Source: Gordius sp. MW1
Lineage: Eukaryota; Nematomorpha; Gordioida; Gordea; Gordiidae
Assembly: GCA_964036665.1 (NCBI GenBank)
Contig: OZ038527.1
Location: 26,081,901-26,145,900 of the forward strand
Direction of reading: 5' to 3'
Length of the DNA stretch: 64,000 bases
The position numbers were made by a program, and so were the translations under genes. Below are positions 2,520 through 63,018 of this stretch, piece by piece (within the stretch, counting starts at the first letter, position 1; each line of letters opens with the position of its first letter). The notes beneath the pieces were generated by a model. The model did not search any database. It saw only the letters and a list, made by a program, of their open reading frames with translations, and was not told the DNA's origin.

Positions 2520-5515
2520 GAAATTTATTATTGATATATATTTAAACATAATATTAAATGGTACAAATATATAATAATGATATTAAAAAAAACATTATAT
2601 GAGTAATATGTTTTCATCTTCCTCTTTTAGAAGAGGCCAGGAATCCAAAAAAGATTTGAAATTAAATTTTGCAATTAAGATGGCTATTGATTGTTTTAAT
2701 AAAAATGCGGGGGAATTTGGAGGGATCAGATCTGCCTATTTCTTTGAATAAAGCCAACGCCATTTTTCCATAGGATCCTGAACAGGAGGAAACTATTGGG
2801 ATAAAAATATTAGAGTCCAAAAGGGCCTTGTATTTTTGGAGCTTGCGTTCTTCGGGCGAGGGCCATGGGGTCATAATTAAGATTAGAGGGGGCAAATAGG
2901 TCTATGCATGTAAAATCCCACTTTAAAAGGAGGCCATTTTCCCATGGGACTAGCGATGAACCGTCAGGACGCATTCGACCTTCAAGGGCAGGATCTGAAG
3001 GTTCAAGTATGGATGGAATTTGGGCCTTTCTAATGGCTGACTGGATAATAGAATTAATTTTAGAGTGTCGCAAGTGTCTAAATTTATTAAGTCTGCAGTG
3101 TAACGGGTGGCGTGCTTCTTCATCCACAGGCAGGTTGCAATTTTTACAGGCATATGCCTTTGTGTATTTTATTCCAAGGCGTATTGCTACATTGTAGGAT
3201 AGCTCGCAATCCTCTAACATCATGTTGGAAAACCTGCTAGGAAAAGCCTCTAGCCATTCATGTCCAGATTTATCAAACACCAAAGATCTAAGGTTGTAAT
3301 GTTGTTTGGTATCGCAGCTCGAAAGGAGATAAGCAACGGAGCGCGAAACCAAACATGCATCCCAATCCTTTTGATTTGGTGTTTGTGGTGGTGAGCTTTC
3401 TGGTAGAACATTTAAATTCCAAAGTGATAGGGCCTGTATAAATGTTTCATCAAGGGGGTATGAGATTAGTTTGGCGACGATGGATTTTGAGGATAAGTGG
3501 GATGATATAAATGAAGCCAAGGATAAGGAGCTGAACGAATTCCCAGACCCCCAGATTTTGTTGGTAATGTGGTTTGTAGCCAGGTGTTAGTATCGAATAA
3601 TAAGTTCAGGGTGGATTTGATGACAGATTTTATGTGAGTTTCGAAATTATGTAAAATATGTGTATGCAAAAATGCGCTTGTTGATCGGAAGCAAAATAAT
3701 ATTTTGGCTATACTAAAGTAGTTTTTCAATATGTAAAATGCGTGATGGGCGGGCATAAGCTTAAAAATTTCATTTTTACATTTTAAATTTTTAAGGTTAT
3801 TGTCGAGATAACTTCTTAAGCATTCAGGACCGCCTATTGGAGAGCCTAGTAAAAATACCTCGTCCTTCTCGAGGCGTAGAAAAAATGCAAAGGATGGGTG
3901 GATGTCGTTGTGCTGTCAGAATAATCGCATTTTGTCGCGTTTAATGATAGGTTAAGTTTTATGTAGTATTCATTAATGATGTTAAGAGCTTTGATTAGCT
4001 CTTCCGTGGTGCCTGATAGGGTGGCATCGTCGAGATACCATACGTTTAACCTCAAATTGCATTTGTCGTTGTTTTCATCTATTAATGATTTGATGGCCAT
4101 ACAAAATAAGGGGGGGGCCAAGGGGGTTCCCCTGTTGAATGCCCTCAGCTGAATCAATGAAAAATTGTCCAAATTTTAAAATAGACGGGGTGCCATAATT
4201 TAAAAGAATATAGTTGGCACTTGGCATATTGGGGAAAAGCATCGATGAAAGTGTTAATAAAGGAATTTCTATTTAGGTTGTTAAAGGCATTTTGAAAGTC
4301 TAATTTTATAAAAGACTCGCTAGGCGGTAAATTTTCAAGGGTCAATCTAGCAGCATGCGTAGCTATTTCACAACCCCCTTTAACACCGAATCCTGATGAG
4401 GCATTAGAGATGGGGATAAATTATGCTTGATTGATTTGCATATAACTTTAGATCTGATTCTCCGGAAGACTCCACCGATGGCGATCGGTCTTAGAGTTTT
4501 GTTCTGTTTTTGAATAGCAAGTAACTTGGCCCCGAAAATTATTGGTCGTACTTCTTGAGGAATGTTGCCATTAATAATTAAATTGCAAAATTTAGTTAGT
4601 GCAACGAGCAGAATTGAAGAATTGATATTTTCAATTTTAATAAGATCTTGAAGATAAATTGGTTTGATACCATCCAAACCTGCAGCAGAGTCAATTGGAA
4701 AGGAATGGATAGCTTCACTAATTTCTGAGGATTCTAGTGTTAAGTTGGATGGCACAAGGGGGAAGCAATACTGAGACAGATGTTTTGGGTGTTTGGCAAG
4801 GAGGTGTTCATATGATTCCTGACTAGGGGTTACAATTGGATTGTTTTCCTCTAAAAGTCTCATGGCTCCTTTTATATTAAAAGAGTGAATTTTCCTGGAT
4901 ATCCTAGTTGCTGTTTGTTTTGGAGTTGATGATATTAATTTTCGTTCATCAGGTGTATAATCTGCAAGTGTATTATTAATGTCAAAATCCAATTTTCATT
5001 TTTAATTTTTTGTTATAGGTTTTTTTCCTCAGATTTGGGTGGGGCCAAAATGTGAGAAGAGAATTTGATTAATTTTCCCATGCAACAATGTTGTGTGGGT
5101 CACTTATGATAGTATTTAGCAAGTTTATTAAAAATTGTTGCCAACAAGGTCGTGCTCCTCTTGGAATTCTTGAAATTGTGGGGGTGAAGCCATGTGCCAA
5201 AAGAACTTTACTCCATGTTGAATCAGGAGGCTCATCACTGTAATAAACATTATTAGGGGTAGCTGAGAATATACTAGAGTTAGGTATAATGTCAATGTTA
5301 TTATTAGATTCAATTTCTAGTGCTGTAGAAAGACATATTATATTTGGAGGGGCCAGCTTACCAGCTGATAATTGGCCATTGGGGACAAAACAATTTTTTT
5401 TGTTCAAACAAATGTTCCTCTTACATGTAGGGCATAGAGATTTAAGTGCTACCATGGGTGTAAGGTGACAAATAAAGATTAATAAGAATTTCAAACGTGC
5501 AAGGTTGAAATTCAC
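2520..5515 (-). pseudogene. Decayed LINE ORF, R2-superclade type (reverse transcriptase + restriction-like endonuclease)
   Basis: Open pieces on the minus strand, in shifting frames, follow the domain order of the intact element at 57786-60596. The N-terminal part with a TISRIPRGAR motif is at 5069-5515. The thumb-proximal and early RT part, including AAGLDGIKPIYLQDL, is at 4363-4992. RT motif A (LDFQNAFN) is at 4154-4345. The YLDD active-site block is at 3846-4172. The CCHC knuckle and the RPD...WDFT endonuclease motif are at 2810-3520. The conserved tail is at 2662-2895. Frameshifts and small gaps separate the pieces, so no full protein can be made. It is inserted in the 408-6429 hAT-type element. 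The family is shared with copies at 12358-12706 and 35160-35450. Confidence 0.85.
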
Positions 5516-8105: not shown

Positions 8106-10283
8106 CATACATACATACATACATACATACATACATACATACATACATACATACATACATACATACATACATACATACATACATACATACATACATACAT
8201 ACATACATACATACATACATACATACATACATACATACATACATACATACATACATACATACATACATACATACATACATACATACATACATACATACAT
8301 ACATACATACATACATACATACATACATACATACATACATACATACATACATACATACATACATACATACATACATACATACATACATACATACATACAT
8401 ACATACATACATACATACATACATACATACATACATACATACATACATACATACATACATACATACATACATACATACATACATACATACATACATACAT
8501 ACATACATACATACATACATACATACATACATACATACATACATACATACATACATACATACATACATACATACATACATACATACATACATACATACAT
8601 ACATACATACATACATACATACATACATACATACATACATACATACATACATACATACATACATACATACATACATACATACATACATACATACATACAT
8701 ACATACATACATACATACATACATACATACATACATACATACATACATACATACATACATACATACATACATACATACATACATACATACATACATACAT
8801 ACATACATACATACATACATACATACATACATACATACATACATACATACATACATACATACATACATACATACATACATACATACATACATACATACAT
8901 ACATACATACATACATACATACATACATACATACATACATACATACATACATACATACATACATACATACATACATACATACATACATACATACATACAT
9001 ACATACATACATACATACATACATACATACATACATACATACATACATACATACATACATACATACATACATACATACATACATACATACATACATACAT
9101 ACATACATACATACATACATACATACATACATACATACATACATACATACATACATACATACATACATACATACATACATACATACATACATACATACAT
9201 ACATACATACATACATACATACATACATACATACATACATACATACATACATACATACATACATACATACATACATACATACATACATACATACATACAT
9301 ACATACATACATACATACATACATACATACATACATACATACATACATACATACATACATACATACATACATACATACATACATACATACATACATACAT
9401 ACATACATACATACATACATACATACATACATACATACATACATACATACATACATACATACATACATACATACATACATACATACATACATACATACAT
9501 ACATACATACATACATACATACATACATACATACATACATACATACATACATACATACATACATACATACATACATACATACATACATACATACATACAT
9601 ACATACATACATACATACATACATACATACATACATACATACATACATACATACATACATACATACATACATACATACATACATACATACATACATACAT
9701 ACATACATACATACATACATACATACATACATACATACATACATACATACATACATACATACATACATACATACATACATACATACATACATACATACAT
9801 ACATACATACATACATACATACATACATACATACATACATACATACATACATACATACATACATACATACATACATACATACATACATACATACATACAT
9901 ACATACATACATACATACATACATACATACATACATACATACATACATACATACATACATACATACATACATACATACATACATACATACATACATACAT
10001 ACATACATACATACATACATACATACATACATACATACATACATACATACATACATACATACATACATACATACATACATACATACATACATACATACAT
10101 ACATACATACATACATACATACATACATACATACATACATACATACATACATACATACATACATACATACATACATACATACATACATACATACATACAT
10201 ACATACATACATACATACATACATACATACATACATACATACATACATACATACATACATACATACATACATACATACATACA
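8106..10283. repeat. Perfect (CATA)n microsatellite, about 544 copies
   Basis: An uninterrupted run of the tetranucleotide CATA (TATG on the other strand) for about 2,178 bp, with no interruption seen on reading. It has no stop codon in several frames, so it yields long apparent MYVC/IHTY reading frames that are not genes. It lies about 100 bp right of a truncated LINE end and directly left of a family C repeat fragment. Confidence 0.98.
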
Positions 10284-10304: not shown

Positions 10305-10773
10305 ATGCTAGATGGCCGCTGCAGACCACTGGAAAAAAATGACCGCTGGCCAAAGTGTGAATCCAATGTTTTTTTGTATTTTGCCTATATATAATTATAG
10401 TCTAGTTAGCCGTCTGCTGGTCGCTAACCAATAGAAAAAATGACCACTGGCCAAAGTGTGTCGAAGATTTTATATTTTGCCCTTATATGATATTAGGCTG
10501 TTAGACCTTTTTCAAATTTCTCTAACTCCCTGCTTGACCATTGCCTCCTCCCCCTAGGCGTTCTAGACTCTTCCCCACTATCTCGCGCGAATTGCATAGC
10601 AAATATGCTACTATTATACGAAGTTTAGATGAGTTTTGTAAAAACAATACCCCAAAACTAGGCGCATGTACCAAAACAATAAAAACGAATCCCAAGTCGG
10701 ACCACCCCCAACGCCCCTTCCCCCCTCTTCCCCTACCAGGGGCAAAGCCCCTAGTTTATTTGTTTTTATTAAA
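10305..10773 (+). mobile_element. Family C composite repeat, short copy
   Basis: It begins with two core units containing GACCGCTGGCCAAAGTGTG and GACCACTGGCCAAAGTGTG (10340-10460). It continues through the family tail: a pyrimidine-rich stretch, AATTGCATAGCAAATATGCT, an ATACGAAGT segment, C-rich sequence, and a terminal hairpin AGGGGC-AAA-GCCCCT ending CTAG near 10757. The 5' head is absent. The tail hairpin differs in sequence from that of the larger copies but keeps the same shape. Confidence 0.7.
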
Positions 10774-11937: not shown

Positions 11938-12355
11938 CATAGACTAGATAGACTGATCATGCCATATGTTCCACATTGTAAATTGTGTGTCAAATCTCCA
12001 ATTTAAGACAACGATTGTTGTATTTCAATCATGTCATTCATTTTGCGCTATAAAAGTCAATTGACCTTCCTTTCCTCACTAGTTTATAAATTTGAACGAA
12101 CGTTAATAAATTAATATTATACAAAATATAGATGGCACTATATTATTAAACTAACTTTCATCACAGTCTTTACATTTTTAATTTTTATGTATTGTGTAAA
12201 TGATATTTAATTTAGAATTCTGTTTTTGATACCTATCCAATTCATTTTTTATTTATCTTTTTAATATTTAGTTCACAAAAATTCCTAACATCTATATAAT
12301 CACTACTAACTATTAAAATGGTGGAAAAAGGGGTGCACATTTTGTGTGCTGATGA
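11938..12355. mobile_element. M3 inverted-repeat element, one end lost
   Basis: The left end has CATAGACTAGATAGACTG as in the 47664 and 25604 elements. The right side (about 12315-12355) carries GGTGGAAAAAGG and GCACATTTTGTGTG, the complement of the subterminal sequence just inside the end at 25604. The right terminal repeat itself is missing, and LINE sequence begins within a few bases. Confidence 0.55.
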
Positions 12356-25595: not shown

Positions 25596-25790
25596 ATTTT
25601 ATACATTAACTAGATAGACTGCTTATCAACGCACAAAATGTGCACACTTTTTCCACCATTTTAATGATGGCATGGTAAAGTAGTGATTACATAGAGAATT
25701 TCTATAAATTAAATAATATATTTAAAAGGTAAATATTAAAAATATAGAATTGGGTAGAGTGTATAAAACAACATTATAAAATAAATATTA

Positions 25791-27270
25791 ATTGCTATGC
25801 AATTTATGGGCTCGCTTTTGATTTTGTTTACCAATGTCTTGTCACGTCCGCGTCCGCATACACCCTGCCTATCTATTTGCATTGGGTATATTAGGTTATC
25901 GATTTTTTAAATTAATGCATAAGAAAGAGGTGCCCCACCCCTCATCTCTATCTCCCTCGCTGTGTTATTTTTTAAATTAATGCATAAGAGGTGCCCCATT
26001 GATAATATGACTTTTTGGACGTCCGCTTGTTCTATTATTGTTTCATTTTATTAATTTTATATAATAAACATAAATAAAAGTTGTTTACTTTTAATTGCTA
26101 TGCAATTTTTAACTAGTTTTGGGGTTAATATAATAAACATAAATAAAAGTTGTTTACTTTTAATTGCAATGCAATTTAACTAGTTTTTGGGTTAGAATCC
26201 CGGAGTTTTTTTTTGACTCTTATGATTGTTCTTGTTACTATCATTGATAATAAGACTTTTTGGCCGTCCGCTGGCTGCTGACCAATGAAAAAAATGACCA
26301 TTGGCCAAAATGTGAATCCGAGTTTATTTTTTCGTTTTTTTTTGACTATTATGATTGTTCCTGTTACTACCATTGCTATTATGACTTTTTGGCCGTTCGC
26401 TGGCTCCTGTCCGATGGAAAAAATGACCATTGGCTAAAATGTGAATCGAAATTATTTTTTTCGTTTTTTTTGACTATTATGATTGTTCCTGTTCCTACCA
26501 TTGCTATTATGACTTTTTGGCCGTCCGCTGGCTGCTGACCAATGGAATAAAATGACCATTGGCCAAAATGTGATTCGAAAACTTTTTTTTCGTTTTTTTT
26601 TTACTATTATGAATTTATATCCACTTTTACCGTGTCCTGGCTGCTGACTAATGGAAAAATAACCATTGGCCAAAATGTGATTTTTTTTTCGTTTTTTATT
26701 ACTCTTATGAATTTATATCCACTTTTACCGTGTGCTGGCTGCTGACCAATGGAAACAAATGACCATTGGCCAAAGTGAGCATCAAAATTTTTTTTCCGTT
26801 TTTTTTTTGGCTATAATTGACTTATAGAGTATCTGTTGGTACTGACCAATAGAGAAAAAATGACCATTGGCCAAATTTTTGATTTTTTTAATTAAAAATT
26901 GTTCAAATTCAACAAAAAATTTCTCCCAACAATTCTGCAAATTCTTAACATTGTGATGTTTTATAATATAATGTTTGTTAGACCAATAATCACTAAAGGG
27001 CATAAAAACTAATGTAATACGCAACTAGATGCAAACACTAAATCTAACCCTAACCCTTGCCTATATTACATTTTGCCTATAAATGGAAAATTTGTATAAA
27101 TAATTAATTAATCATTAGGCATTTAATACCCCCCTATAGGCATTCTCGCCCCTTCCCACCTTTCTCGCCCATAAATTGCATAGCAAATATGATACATTTA
27201 TACGAAGTACAGATGAGTCGTCCCCCCTTCCCTTCCCCTCTTCCCTTCCCACGAGGGCCGAAGGCCCGAG
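25791..27270 (+). mobile_element. Family C composite repeat, copy A
   Basis: Head ATTGCTATGCAATTTATGGG-CTCG, then CGTCCGCGTCCG. The GTGCCCCACCCCTCATCTC and AATTGCTATGCAATTTTTAACTAG segments follow. The tandem core runs about 26220-26890 (six units). The tail has CTAACCCTAACCC, CGCCCCTTCCCACC, AAATTGCATAGCAAATATG, ATACGAAGTACAGATGAG, a C/T-rich tract and the terminal hairpin GGGCC-GAA-GGCCC followed by GAGTTTT. No coding frame of its own; the open frames in the core are repeat artefacts. The layout resembles non-autonomous Helentron/pearl-type elements (inference). Confidence 0.75.
26220..26890 (+). repeat. Family C core tandem units, copy A
   Basis: Six imperfect units of about 105-130 bp, each containing GGCCGTCCGCTGGCTGCTG (or CCGTGT-CTGGCTGCTG), then GACCAATGG-AAAAAATGA-CCATTGGCC. 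This is a hairpin with an 8-bp stem, followed by a T-rich spacer with TCGTTTTTTT. Two unit subtypes alternate: one with ATGATTGTTCCTGTTACTAC, one with GAATTTATATCCACTTTTAC. Confidence 0.9.
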
Positions 27271-31599: not shown

Positions 31600-33016
31600 T
31601 GCTTGAAATTTAAAATCGTCATTTTGGGCCCGGCAGTTCGGATTCGGACAGCATTAGTGAATTGGGCAATTAAAGGGTTTTGTTTTGGCTGGCCTTGGCG
31701 GGCAATTTAGTTATCAAACCGTGATGGGTTCTAGCAGAATTTAGGCAAATAGGATAAATGATAAAGGTAATAATTTTGTATAGAATGAGGAAATTTATAA
31801 TAAATAGTCATTTCATTTGCCCAGCGATTGTCATTTAAAAATTTCACTTGAAGGAGCTATAATTCGTTAATATTGCAAATTGATTTCATCGATGTCTTGA
31901 CAACCTATTTTTTAACTAAGCTTTTAATCTCGTGATTATGGAAAAACTAGGATCATTGATGCATGTGGATGTGGTGTTAATAAGACAAAAAAATGTGGTT
32001 AAAGCTTTTTGTCAAACATTTAATATACAAATAAATAGGATTCTTTTTATTTATAAGTGAGTCCTTTATCTGACTTTATATACTCATTTAATACTTTATT
32101 TATATCAATATTTTTAATTTTTGCTACGGGGATGGGGGAGGCCCTTGGCTACCCCACTCATTGTTTACAATTATAGGTGTCTGTATCTTTAAACAAAAGA
32201 GATTATTAATCAGGGGTTTAAAAAAAAAATATATATAGGATAGATAATCATAATTAATATTTATTTTGATAATTAATGATTATTTATGGATATGCATATG
32301 TTTGCTCCATAAAAAATAAACCATGATTATAACAATTAAAATATATAGGAAATTAATTACTATATTAAACATAATTGCTTAGTTAGCCACTTTCTTAGGT
32401 GGTCTCATGTTTTCACGGGAAATAAATGTTCAATTAAGTTTTTTTTTCATAGCAGTTTTCACAATCATATTCTAAAATTTTACAATGCATTTTGTCAAAA
32501 ATTAACATAAAAAAATTAAATTATATTTCCAGGTTTCATAAGTGTTTTAAAGTCTTTGAAGCAACTAAACTATAATATTTTAACACATTTAAATCAAAAA
32601 ACTTTTAAAATTTTTGCCAAGGTGGGGCCTTATTGTCACTGAATATTAACCTCGAAGAATGTTTGCTGGACCAAGCTTGGTGATATTCGAAATTGTACGA
32701 TTGAGTGAGTTTTTTTTTATTTTCAACCTTTGTAGATTCATTTTTATGATATTTAAAAATTTGTCTTGAGTAACAATGACTTGCAAAACCAACGACTTTT
32801 GTTAAAAAAAACCTAAGCTGGTTAATTATCTAATAGAGATTTGAAACTATGAACTTCGACAAAATTTCACAAAACATGGAATTAAGTATTGCTTTTACTT
32901 ATATTACTCATATTACGGGTATAATTTCCAGTAATACATACATACATAAGTTTGAAAAACATCTATCGAATAAAATCATATTAATATATAAAGTTATTTT
33001 AACAAATGATCAACAT
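31600..33016. other. AT-rich intergenic sequence, no gene seen
   Basis: I found no coding frame, inverted ends or tandem array that I can support. Short G-rich motifs near 31625 and 32130 are unassigned. Confidence 0.4.
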
Positions 33017-33098
33017 GACGAGGTGGCCGAGTGGTTAAGGCGATGGACTGCTAATCCATTGGGATTTTCCCGCGTGGGTTCGAATCCCATCCTCGTCG
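33017..33098 (+). tRNA. tRNA-Ser (anticodon GCT)
   Basis: 82-nt cloverleaf with a long variable arm typical of serine tRNAs. The acceptor stem GACGAGG (33017-33023) pairs fully with CCTCGTC (33091-33097), discriminator G. The anticodon stem is ATGGA/TCCAT with loop CTGCTAA (33048-33054) and anticodon GCT at 33050-33052, reading AGC/AGU. The A box is TGGCCGAGTGG and the B box GGTTCGAATCC. A Pol III terminator (TTTTATTTTTTTT) follows within 10 bases. No CCA is encoded, as expected for a eukaryotic nuclear gene. It appears functional. Confidence 0.97.
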
Positions 33099-33490
33099 AA
33101 TATTTTATTTTTTTTAATTTCTATATAAACAATAGAAATTACGAACTTTTGCGTAACATTATCATAGACAACGAAATATTGCATATTAAATTTACAATAG
33201 CCGTCATTGGATAATTCACGGGACGGAATTTAAAACACAAAATTGAATTTATACAGCCGGGCTCTATGTTTTTATTCTTACTCGTCCGGGTCCAATATGC
33301 TTATTTTTGGCCGACTCGAGCCCGGCTCGAGTTTAAAAAAAGTATTTAGTCAATTTTTAAATTTAAGGGGATAAGTTTGGAATAATCCAATTTCTCTTGC
33401 TACACAACTTGGTTAAATAGTTTAATAACTTAAAACTTAACTTATTAATAATAACTTTAATTTACCAAGATTAATAATACGAAAAGTTAA
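33099..33490. other. Intergenic; possible GGCTCGAG-rich repeat scrap
   Basis: A GC patch at about 33255-33335 (CAGCCGGGCTC, CGAGCCCGGCTCGAG) resembles the GGCCCG subterminal zones of the hAT-type family but lacks ends. Otherwise nothing supportable. Confidence 0.35.
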
Positions 33491-34870
33491 ATTATTATGC
33501 TATGCAATTTATGGGCTCGTTTTTTGGTGTCCGTCCGTTGTCCGTTGTCCGTTGTCCGTTACCCTCCCTATCTATTTGCATTAGGTATATTAGGTTATCG
33601 CTTTTTTAAATTAATGCATGAGAAAGAGGTGCCCCACCCCTCATCTCTATCTCCCTCGCTGTGTTATTTTTTAAATTAATGCATAAGAGGTGCCCCACCC
33701 CTCATCTCTATCTCCCTCGGTGTGTTATATATAAGATTTGTTAAATTATCTATTATATAATAAACATAGATAAAAGTTGTTTACTTTTAATGCTATGCAA
33801 TTTAACTAGTTATATAATAAACATAAATAAAAGTTGTTTACTTTTTAATTGCTATGCAATTCAACTAGTTTTGGGGTTAAAATCCCGGAGTTTTTTTGAC
33901 TCTTATGTTTGTTCTTGTTACTATCATTGATAATAAGAATTTTTGGCCGTGCGCTGGCTGCTGACCAATGAAAAAAATGACCATTGGCCAAAATGTGAAT
34001 CGAAATTATTTTTTTCGTTTTTTTTTGACTATTATGATTGTTCCTGTTCCTACCATTGCTATTATGACTTTTTGGCCGTCCGCTGGCTGCTGACCAATGG
34101 AATAAAATGACCATTGGCCAAAATGTGATTCGAAAACTTTTTTTTCGTTTTTTTTTGACTATTATGAATTTATATCCACTTTTACCGTGTCCTGGCTGCT
34201 GACCAATGAAAAAAAATGACCATTGGCCAAAATGCGATTCTAAAATTTTTTTTTCCATTTTTTTTACTCTTATGAATTTATATCCACATTTACCGTGTGC
34301 TGGCTGCTGACCAATGGAAAAAAATGACCATTGGCCAAAGTGAGCATCAAAATTTTTTTTTCCGTTTTTTTGACTATCATTGACTTATAGAGTATCTGTT
34401 GGTACTGACCAATAGAGAAAAAGTGATCATTGGCCTAATTTTTGATTTTTTTAATTAAAAATTGTTCAAATTCAACAAAAAATTTCTCCCAACAATTCTG
34501 CAAATTCTTAACATTGTGTTGTTTTATAATATAATGTTTGTTAGACCCATAATCACTAAAGGCCATAAAAACTAATGTAATACGCAACTAGATGCAAACA
34601 CTAAATCTAACCCTTGCCTATACATTTTGCCTATATTACATTTTGCCTATATTACATTTTGCCTATAAATGGAAAATTTGTATAAATAATTAATTAATTA
34701 TTAGGCATTTAATACCCCCCTATAGGCATTCTCGCCCCTTCCCACCTTTCTCGCCCATAAATTGCATAGCAAATATGATACATTTATACGAAGTACAGAT
34801 GAGTCGTCCCCCCTTCCCTTCCCCTCTTCCCTTCCCTTCTCCCCCTTCCCACGAGGGCCGAAGCCCCGAG
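33491..34870 (+). mobile_element. Family C composite repeat, copy B
   Basis: Same order of parts as copy A: head with TGCTATGCAATTTATGGG-CTCG and repeated GTCCGTTGTCC (33500-33560), GTGCCCCACCCCTCATCTC twice, AATTGCTATGCAATTCAACTAG, tandem core (about 33900-34440, five to six units), then the tail with GCCTATATTACATTTT repeats and terminal hairpin GGGCC-GAA-GCCCC. The tail (34445-34870) is nearly identical to those of copies A and C, which suggests recent amplification. Confidence 0.78.
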
Positions 34871-40381: not shown

Positions 40382-42141
40382 TAATTGCTATGCAATTTAT
40401 GGGCTCGTTTTTTGTTGTCCGTCCGTCCGTTGTCTGTCCGTTACCCTCCCTATCTATTTGTATTGGGTATATTAGGTTATCGCTTTTTTAAATTAATGCA
40501 TGAGAAAGAGGTGCCCCACCCCTCATCTCTATCTCCCTCGCTGTGTTATTTTTTAAATGAATGCATAAGAGGTGCCCCACCCCTCATCTCTATCTCCCTC
40601 GGTGTGTTATATTATATATAAGATTTGTTAAATTATCTATTATATAATAAACATAGATAAAAGTTGTTTACTTTTAATGCTATGCAATTTAACTAGTTAT
40701 ATAATAAACATAAATAAAAGTTGTTTACTTTTTAATTGCTATGCAATTTAACTAGTTTTGGGGTTAGAATCCCGTAGTTTTTTTGACTCTTATGATTGTT
40801 CTTGTTACTATCATTGATAATAAGAATTTTTGGCCGTCCGCTGGCTGCTGACGAATGAAAAAATGACCATTTGCCAAAATGTGAATCGAAATTATTTTTT
40901 TCGTTTTTTTTTGACTATTATGATTGTTCCTGTTTCTACCATTGCTATTATGACTTTTTGGCCGTCCGCTGGCTGCTGACCAATGTTATATAATAGACAT
41001 AAATAAAAGTTGTTTACTTTTAATTGCTATGCAATTTAACTAGTTTTTGGGTTAGAATCCAGGAGTTTTTTTTTACTCTTATGATTGTTCTTGTTACTAT
41101 CATTGATAATAAGACTTTTTGGCCGTCCGTTGGCTGCTGACCAATGAAAAAAATGACCATTGGCCAAAATGTGAATCCGAGTTTATTTTTTCGTTTTTTT
41201 TTACTATTATGATTGTTCCTGTTACTACCATTGCTATTATGACTTTTTGGCCGTCCGCTGGCTCCTGACCGATGGAAAAAATGACCATTGGCCAAAATGT
41301 GAATCGAAATTATTTTTTTCGTTTTTTTTTTACTATTATGATTGTTCCTGTTCCTACCATTGCTATTATGACTTTTTGGCCGTCCGCTGGCTGCTGACCA
41401 ATGGAATAAAATGACCATTGGCCAAAATGTGATTCGAAAACTTTTTTTTCGTTTTTTTTTGACTATTATGAATTTATATCCACTTTTACCGTGTCCTGGC
41501 TGCTGACCAATGGAAAAAATGACCATTGGCCAAAATGTGATTCGAAAATTTTTTTTTCGTTTTTTTTACTCTTATGAATTTATATCCACTTTTACCGTGT
41601 GCTGGCTGACCAATGGAAAAAAATGACCATTGGCCAAAGTGAGCATCAAAATTTTTTTTCCGTTTTTTTTTGCTATCATTGACTTATAGAGTATCTGTTA
41701 GTACTGACCAATAGAGAAAAAGTGACCATTGGCCAAATTTTTGATTTTTTTAATTAAAAATTGTTCAAATTCAACAAAAAATTTCTCCCAACAATTCTGC
41801 AAATTCTTAACATTGTGTTGTTTTATAATATAATGTTTGTTAGACCCATAATCACTAAAGGCCATAAAAACTAATGTAATACGCAACTAGATGCAAACAC
41901 TAAATCTAACCCTAACCCTTGCCTATATTACATTTTGCCTATAATGGAAAATTTGTATAAATAATTAATTAATCATTAGGCATTTAATACCCCCCCTATA
42001 GGCATTCTCGCCCCTTCCCACCTTTCTCGCCCATAAATTGCATAGCAAATATGATACATTTATACGAAGTACAGATGAGTCGTCCCCCCTTCCCCTCTTC
42101 CCTTCCCTTCTCCCCCTTCCCACGAGGGCCGAAGGCCCGAG
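40382..42141 (+). mobile_element. Family C composite repeat, copy C
   Basis: Head TAATTGCTATGCAATTTATGGG-CTCG with GTCCGTCCGTCCG. GTGCCCCACCCCTCATCTC occurs twice. The core (about 40790-41740) has about eight units. A block carrying AATTGCTATGCAATTTAAC and AGTTTTTGGGTTAGAATCC has been duplicated into the core (about 40985-41070), giving a higher-order repeat. The tail ends in hairpin GGGCC-GAA-GGCCC then GAGTTTT. No own ORF. Confidence 0.8.

Positions 42142-43887: not shown

Positions 43888-63018
<19,131 letters not shown>

Follow-up and report, generated by a model that had tools for sequence, protein, structure and literature searches.

It is very probable that the repeat at positions 25790-27270 of the window (the whole stretch of 64,000 nucleotides that was analysed, C1:26081901-26145900 in the 211.8-Mb, 12-contig assembly of Gordius sp. 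MW1) is a copy of a high-copy family of non-autonomous Helentrons (HINEs), here named family C, which is moved in trans by Helentron proteins. Since family C combines subterminal inverted repeats, a GTCC-type microsatellite, a tandem core, a 3' hairpin, insertion into T runs without duplication and the presence of a Helentron with a matching 5' end, it fits the DINE-1/HINE/pearl group, and the likeness of layout to these elements that a preliminary description had proposed is supported by its inverted repeats, core, hairpin and T-run insertion. The class is already well described, to judge from the available text of two sources (PMC4067079, PMC7492417), so family C is a new family of a known class and the earlier expectation of a poorly described system had to be given up. 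What is new is family C itself, its connection within a single genome to a Helentron that has the same 5' start, and the probable derivation of its core from a leader; any novelty of kind may be limited to the core and modules, which are set apart from the named families by description. Family C adds no new transposition mechanism. Because a likely source of the core, in a Helentron leader, and a Helentron with the same 5' start occur together here, it becomes possible to test where HINE cores come from.

Abundance of family C and its copies in the window

Each copy starts T|AATTGCTATGCAATTTATGGGC and ends at the hairpin CGAGGGCCGAAGGCCCGAG|T. Between these borders the order of modules is a 20-bp head TTGCTATGCAATTTATGGGC, a GTCC-type microsatellite in some copies, a pyrimidine block, units of 57-69 bp and the tandem core, and 3' of the core come a single-copy right module, the head again as its reverse complement, a C/T-rich stretch and finally the hairpin. 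Across the 211.8-Mb genome there are 11,677 exact matches to the 20-bp head (reversed control 0), which rules out chance for family C; the pattern also catches the 3' inverted copy, so the elements are fewer than 11,677. The exact tail GAGGGCCGAAGGCCCGAGT is found 3,673 times genome-wide (reversed control 0) and the short motif TTGCATAGCAA 24,447 times (reversed control 27). With up to one mismatch, TTGCATAGCAA occurs 30 times in the window, where 2.33 are expected and 0 of 100 shuffles reach 30, and all four window copies have it in the head, the mid-block and the tail region. The recurrence of a palindromic motif at these three places, as claimed from the letters alone, therefore stands, but the palindrome is not a perfect one, the motif reading TTGC-ATA-GCAA with the complement TTGCTATGCAA. 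Among the matches listed in a literature search with TTGCTATGCAA, none looked related by its title or the start of its abstract. Compared in pairs over their last 340 bp, 22 collected copies are 96.7% identical at the median (231 pairs, range 64-100%), and by these sequences family C appears to be a young-looking and very abundant HINE family.

The four window copies share head, pyrimidine block, mid-block, core and hairpin, in accordance with the common layout proposed earlier for at least three full copies and an inverted copy D. Their size is about 1.4-3.3 kb and, themselves included, they match 8,476 of the 64,000 window bases at E <= 1e-10. The named copy (plus strand) begins at 25790 with AATTGC and finishes with its hairpin at 27270, so that the previous borders (25791 to 27270) were right within 1-2 bp. 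Its 5' border (25788-25791), determined with the empty-site alignment, reads TT|AA before the subterminal repeat, with a T run common to host and element, and the 5' subterminal inverted repeat, internally near-palindromic, occupies 25792-25811. It is followed by the pyrimidine-rich block at 25910-25999, with two GAGGTGCCCCA motifs 61 bp apart (TRF calls a 61-bp unit in copies 2, 3 and D), and by the mid-block at 26056-26194 (TRF 26059-26194), where two 69-bp units bear TTGC[T/A]ATGCAA; other copies have a 57-bp class. The tandem core (26205-26875, called by TRF) has six inverted-CCAAT units with a spacing of 98-129 bp. The single-copy right module (26890-27166) precedes the 3' subterminal inverted repeat GCCCATAAATTGCATAGCAA at 27167-27186, which is the reverse complement of the head, the inverted pair being exact over 20 bp in this copy. 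The C/T-rich stretch (27215-27251, TRF 27221-27250) and the terminal hairpin (27252-27270) complete the element.

Comparison of the window copies placed the second full copy at 33495-34870 and the third at 40383-42141, both on the plus strand and both with a GTCC microsatellite (33529-33557 and 40414-40439, respectively), which is 8 bp long in D and forms no run in the named copy. Copy D (53912-57168, minus strand; TRF and alignment) has nine core units in its main array plus one at 54375-54402, six mid-block motifs and its own divergent tail type, in which a stretch of 180 bp is doubled. The near-identity of tails asserted in the preliminary description thus holds for the three plus-strand copies, whose last 340 bp match those of the remaining 21 collected copies at medians of 97.7, 97.1 and 98.4%, but not for D (67.1%). 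The four copies contain one ORF of at least 150 aa (168 aa, 41020-41526, minus strand, through the tandem core), which we judge to be repeat-derived, and family C is accordingly judged to lack coding capacity, as is required of HINEs.

Several other features of the window were observed. Inside copy D, at 54500-54560 (minus strand), a tRNA-like stretch GGTTATAGCGCCGGCTTGTGAACTGG...GGTTCAAGTC was seen by eye adjoining a T-rich repeat, and it is possibly a SINE; it was not called by ARAGORN or Rfam, whose sole call in the window is a tRNA-Ser at 33016-33099. A perfect (CATA)n array of 544 units (8106-10283) stops about 35 bp before decayed core-like and tail-like fragments of a related element (10318-10634). 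Beyond copy D, an ORF of 936 aa at 57789-60596 (minus strand) encodes a reverse transcriptase (RVT_1, E 5.7e-23), and its C-terminal CxxC-H-C and PDG...WDF stretch, seen by eye, resembles a restriction-like endonuclease of R2-type LINEs. Smaller ORFs at 2810-3520 and 4363-4992 (minus strand) look by eye like fragments of its relatives, and neither had a Pfam match.

Borders, target sites and other element classes

Borders were collected from the window and from 20 fetched loci (L039-L058, chosen for holding heads), which gave 41 heads and 25 tails. TT stands directly 5' of AATTGC in 39 of the 41 heads, with each T position occupied in 40/41, and the two heads without TT are those of L043 and window copy 2 (head mutated). 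The tails read CGAGGGCCGAAGGCCCGAG or near variants, and the base after the hairpin is T in 25/25. Pairing of a head with a following hairpin resulted in 22 copies with a length of 1,123-3,257 bp, and the 3' inverted repeat was found in all of them (at most two mismatches allowed), starting 100-124 bp from the end in 20/22 and 137 and 160 bp from it in the other two; the gap from the repeat to the end equals 80-104 bp in 20/22 copies. Subterminal inverted repeats of at least 11 bp, identical within the family, and T-rich or TT insertion without duplication, both of which characterise HINEs, are present in family C.

When the T's were stripped from the flanks of the 22 copies, matches were 0/22 at 2, 3, 5, 6 and 8 bp and 1/22 at 4 bp (shuffled mean 0.61; shuffled means over all lengths 0.05-0.99). 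With the T's kept there were 18/22 matches of 2 bp (shuffled 18.25), which is because of the T's, and 2/22 of 5 bp (shuffled 1.02). There is no target duplication above chance beyond the T runs in 22 copies. The exact borders and the insertion without duplication that had been anticipated were therefore both observed, and of the outcomes named beforehand as contrary to a rolling-circle element, target-site duplications and an absent border, neither appeared.

An older repeat surrounds the copy at 25790, and two paralogues of this repeat lack the element, one in the window (12046-12338, minus strand; the joined flanks align at 73% over the junction) and one in L041. Both align at 73-74% straight over the junction. 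Since these paralogues read ATATCATTT, with no TT at the junction, the TT target is not seen for this copy. The L045 copy sits in another repeat, whose uninterrupted form, searched as a gapped pattern, has 1,737 genome sites. The filled site of the 25790 copy has five extra T's, only T's being extra, and that of L045 has approximately four more T's than the listed uninterrupted forms, the empty sites in both cases being paralogous, not orthologous, and the junction counts being accurate to within a few bases. For Helentrons, the available text of PMC4067079 likewise reports additional T's in varying numbers.

The 20-bp inverted repeat towards both ends and the lack of a protein could also be expected of a MITE or another relic of a cut-and-paste DNA transposon with inverted repeats, and DINE-1 itself was formerly called a MITE (PMC2374699, as far as its available text goes). 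We give this explanation a minimal chance, as the 3' inverted repeat is not terminal, the two ends are otherwise unlike, and target duplication was not above chance in 22 copies, nor seen at the two empty sites; the terminal inverted repeats with target-site duplication that define a MITE are not what family C displays. It is scarcely credible that family C is a dispersed satellite whose ends are accidental flanks. The core is indeed tandem and a large part of most copies, with array steps mostly of 97-131 bp, but the same two ends bound the core arrays in 22/22 paired copies (since both ends were needed for pairing, the count tells only that copies of this form are common), the tails are 96.7% identical at the median and the host junctions are sharp.

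Canonical Helitrons begin with 5' TC, end with 3' CTRR and insert between A and T. They are abundant in this genome (Rep motif GLPHAH), with 714 first-look candidates for PF14214 (Helitron_like_N), of which 150 were scored and 150/150 match at E <= 0.001. One of them (C6:4548734-4553056; L059, L030 and L060) has a Rep-helicase frame of 1,441 codons, uninterrupted from stop to stop, with a TCTATATATATAAAA stretch upstream, and therefore open canonical frames coexist with Helentrons in the genome. That family C is a non-autonomous derivative of these Helitrons is nevertheless highly improbable, because it ends in T|AATTGC and CCCGAG|T, has no TC start and no CTRR end, and is sited at T runs, and because the matching head accompanies a Rep of the GSPHAH type. 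Neither head nor tail of family C was present in any of 30 canonical Rep loci (L009-L038) with 1.5 kb on each side, a flank too short for most element ends. Canonical Helitrons were also rejected as helpers, the four copies having short BLAST matches in L013 and L038 only of the 30 loci, to the mid-block and to an inserted stretch inside D, not to the ends or the core. No frame with RGSPHxH was found in the 30 Rep loci and 18 more Rep domain pieces (L064-L081), where RGLPHxH is common.

The internal mid-block motifs were considered as alternative 5' ends and rejected, as 49 of 52 mid-type motifs (20 loci and window) have mid-block upstream, and none of the other three is a clear case, one being nested within a mid-block (L053) and two lying in similar, diverged surroundings in L050. 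In the L053 example (L053:1326-3152) a family C copy is inserted at an internal TTAATTGCTATGCAATT motif of another copy's mid-block, which is one case and perhaps a targeting of the family's own motif. In L043, also a single example, a head is fused to mid-block sequence.

The candidate helper and the tandem core

In Rep motif 2, Helentrons have S where Helitrons have L, and an (F/Y)xR signature is also diagnostic, according to the available text of PMC4067079. A DNA pattern for the Helentron form of motif 2 has 22 genome sites (reversed control 0), namely 15 with QHRGSPHAH, one with QKRGSPHAH, one with QHRGRPHAH and five with a stop at that codon, so that GSPHAH is present in 16/22. One site was fetched per type, L083 (Helentron alpha) and L082 (Helentron beta); FKRIEFQHRGSPHAH occurs in both, and alpha has both Rep diagnostics given in that source. 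The open pieces of L083 match in Pfam DUF6570 (E 1.1e-17), Rep (6.2e-11 and 1.6e-6, in two pieces) and PIF1 (1e-25), and its RPA70-like OB folds match PF16900 (5e-11) and PDB chains of RPA70 (about 1e-14). This protein set is the one described for mite Helentrons (PMC4067079, available text). The endonuclease-like region matches Pfam Exo_endo_phos at 7.2e-4 in L082 and 0.038 in L083, both below the cut-off, and a comparison of the L083 piece with the PDB found no relative. By eye, this stretch of L083 holds what we take to be a GDFN motif.

Alpha starts TATT|AATTGCTATGCAATTTATGGG at 466-490 of L083, and 21 bp of this are identical to the 5' start of family C; the two heads part directly after GGG, with CTCG in family C versus TTTTATTAC in alpha. 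The alpha head as a 28-mer, with its own next bases, has 12 genome sites. An exact 27-mer of the alpha Rep has an alpha head upstream in the same orientation at 4/4 sites (3,442, 3,442, 6,618 and 4,953 bp), two of these pairs being arms of one palindrome and not independent. The Rep/helicase with the same ends that the preliminary description proposed to look for has a candidate in alpha as regards the 5' start, the 3' side lying outside the parts read: the read parts of alpha contain no family C tail, and the match of ends is established on the 5' side only. A 3' partner of alpha was also searched through a GGGTT repeat variant, and none was near the 4 of 12 alpha heads covered by 100 listed of 212 sites (C1 to early C5). 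Helentron beta was rejected as a carrier, with no head or tail in 9.9 kb. The L083 copy is probably not active, since its reading frame is interrupted, leaving several open pieces, and since it is part of a palindrome. Judging by the shared start, alpha or a relative of it likely moves family C; given the divergence of the heads and no family C tail in the parts read, the actual helper may be a cousin of alpha.

The alpha copy appears as a palindrome of about 23.4 kb (C2:7806571-7829976; L083 and L084) with the heads outermost and the tails of the two arms meeting in the middle. The central 1.6 kb that was read shows 97.7% identity between the arms, no family C 3' end was seen there, and the outer parts are compared only by their equal head-to-Rep distance (3,442 bp). 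An inverted-dimer by-product of replication is a possible explanation of this palindrome. Two more convergent inverted pairs of Helentron-like sequence are at C8:31247559/31256935 and C2:14212332/14213079. At the far end of alpha, 220 codons are open at L084:118-777; this frame includes a CxxC..H..C stretch (CNGCRRWHNPPLC) and has no Pfam match at E <= 1.

To hypothesize on the mechanism, we infer from the class that family C transposes by rolling circle, and each copy would keep only what a Helentron Rep/helicase/endonuclease needs in cis, which is a 5' end with the subterminal inverted repeat and a 3' end with its inverted copy, the C/T-rich stretch and the terminal GC hairpin. A Helentron protein encoded elsewhere would nick the 5' end, a single strand would be peeled off as it is copied by helicase and host synthesis, copying would end at the 3' hairpin, and the freed strand would be joined into a T run without target duplication. 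When the last 28 nt are folded alone, the terminal hairpin is the optimal structure (-5.2 kcal/mol, z -2.07); in the fold of the 116-nt tail its stem is replaced by pairing with the C/T stretch.

A hairpin can likewise be read in the core units, as was noted at the outset, but in four folds its advantage over shuffled sequences was only moderate (z -0.90 to -2.63). Of 152 core units, the 3' arm CCATTGG is intact in 142 and the 5' arm CCAATGG in 62, compensatory double changes number 0, and the mean of 6.257 pairs is that of shuffled pairings (6.254); as a conserved structure the core hairpin was therefore rejected. Since one arm alone is conserved and no compensatory change is seen, the hairpin structure is probably not what matters, and these alignments suggest that the structure is probably unselected, one arm being kept as a linear motif.

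The 22 paired copies have arrays of 2 to 7 called core units. In BLAST against three loci, core units of the named copy match the 5' leader of alpha (L083:1383-1430) over 48 bp at 77-83% (best E 8.1e-9), and for family C core units in general the identity to the 48-bp leader stretch is 77-85% (best E 7.6e-9, likewise in a search of three loci). A 30-mer from this core-like stretch has 12 genome sites. Seven of the 12 alpha heads, among them all four that accompany a Rep, have such sites downstream (9 sites, the nearest at 894-1,229 bp), and the remaining 3 sites lie elsewhere. Because the 30-mer lies downstream of alpha heads, the core-like unit belongs to the leader of the helper, and the simplest reading that these sequences suggest is an origin of the family C core by amplification of helper leader sequence; the reverse direction, capture of a HINE unit by alpha, is possible. 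A further step, which we consider rather unlikely, is that the helper-derived core, with its inverted CCAAT boxes and one strongly conserved arm, is no neutral filler and was amplified since extra copies of it and of the subterminal motif in the mid-block help a HINE to compete for Helentron protein or for transcription or strand opening. If this is true, the "satellite" cores of HINEs are selected replication or promoter modules captured from the helper.

Comparison with known Helentron-derived families

The comparisons below are with the families as described in the available text of the cited sources. HINE-Mo and Helentron-Mo of a mite (Thomas et al. 2014, PMC4067079) resemble family C in that their subterminal inverted repeats are palindromic and lie 2-4 nt from the 5' end, and also in a 3' palindrome, T-rich insertion without duplication and optional tandem repeats; the mite helper encodes a Rep/helicase/endonuclease and an RPA70 gene, and alpha has Rep, helicase, an endonuclease-like region and RPA70-like OB folds. 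The subterminal repeats are 20 bp in family C versus 12-15 bp in the mite HINE, and the gap from the 3' repeat to the end is 80-104 bp (20/22) versus 38-60 bp (PMC4067079), the longer gap being due to the C/T stretch. Family C further differs from the mite HINE in that its hairpin is at the very end and its mid-block repeats the subterminal motif one to several times.

Cg_HINE of the oyster and bivalve Pearl elements (PMC7492417) share with family C a GTCC/GTCY microsatellite after the 5' repeat, a satellite-like central array, a 3' subterminal repeat with a palindrome, and oligo-T insertion with no target duplication. In that source, as far as its available text goes, no autonomous partner is linked to the oyster HINE, whereas the genome of family C has a 5'-matching Helentron; the two are likened by description. 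DINE-1 (INE-1) of Drosophila has subterminal repeats that, in the available description, are not themselves palindromic, as well as a conserved core and an extra inverted repeat (PMC4067079), and it resembles family C in its subterminal inverted repeats, 3' stem-loop, microsatellite, TT target and very high copy number (PMC4067079, PMC2374699).
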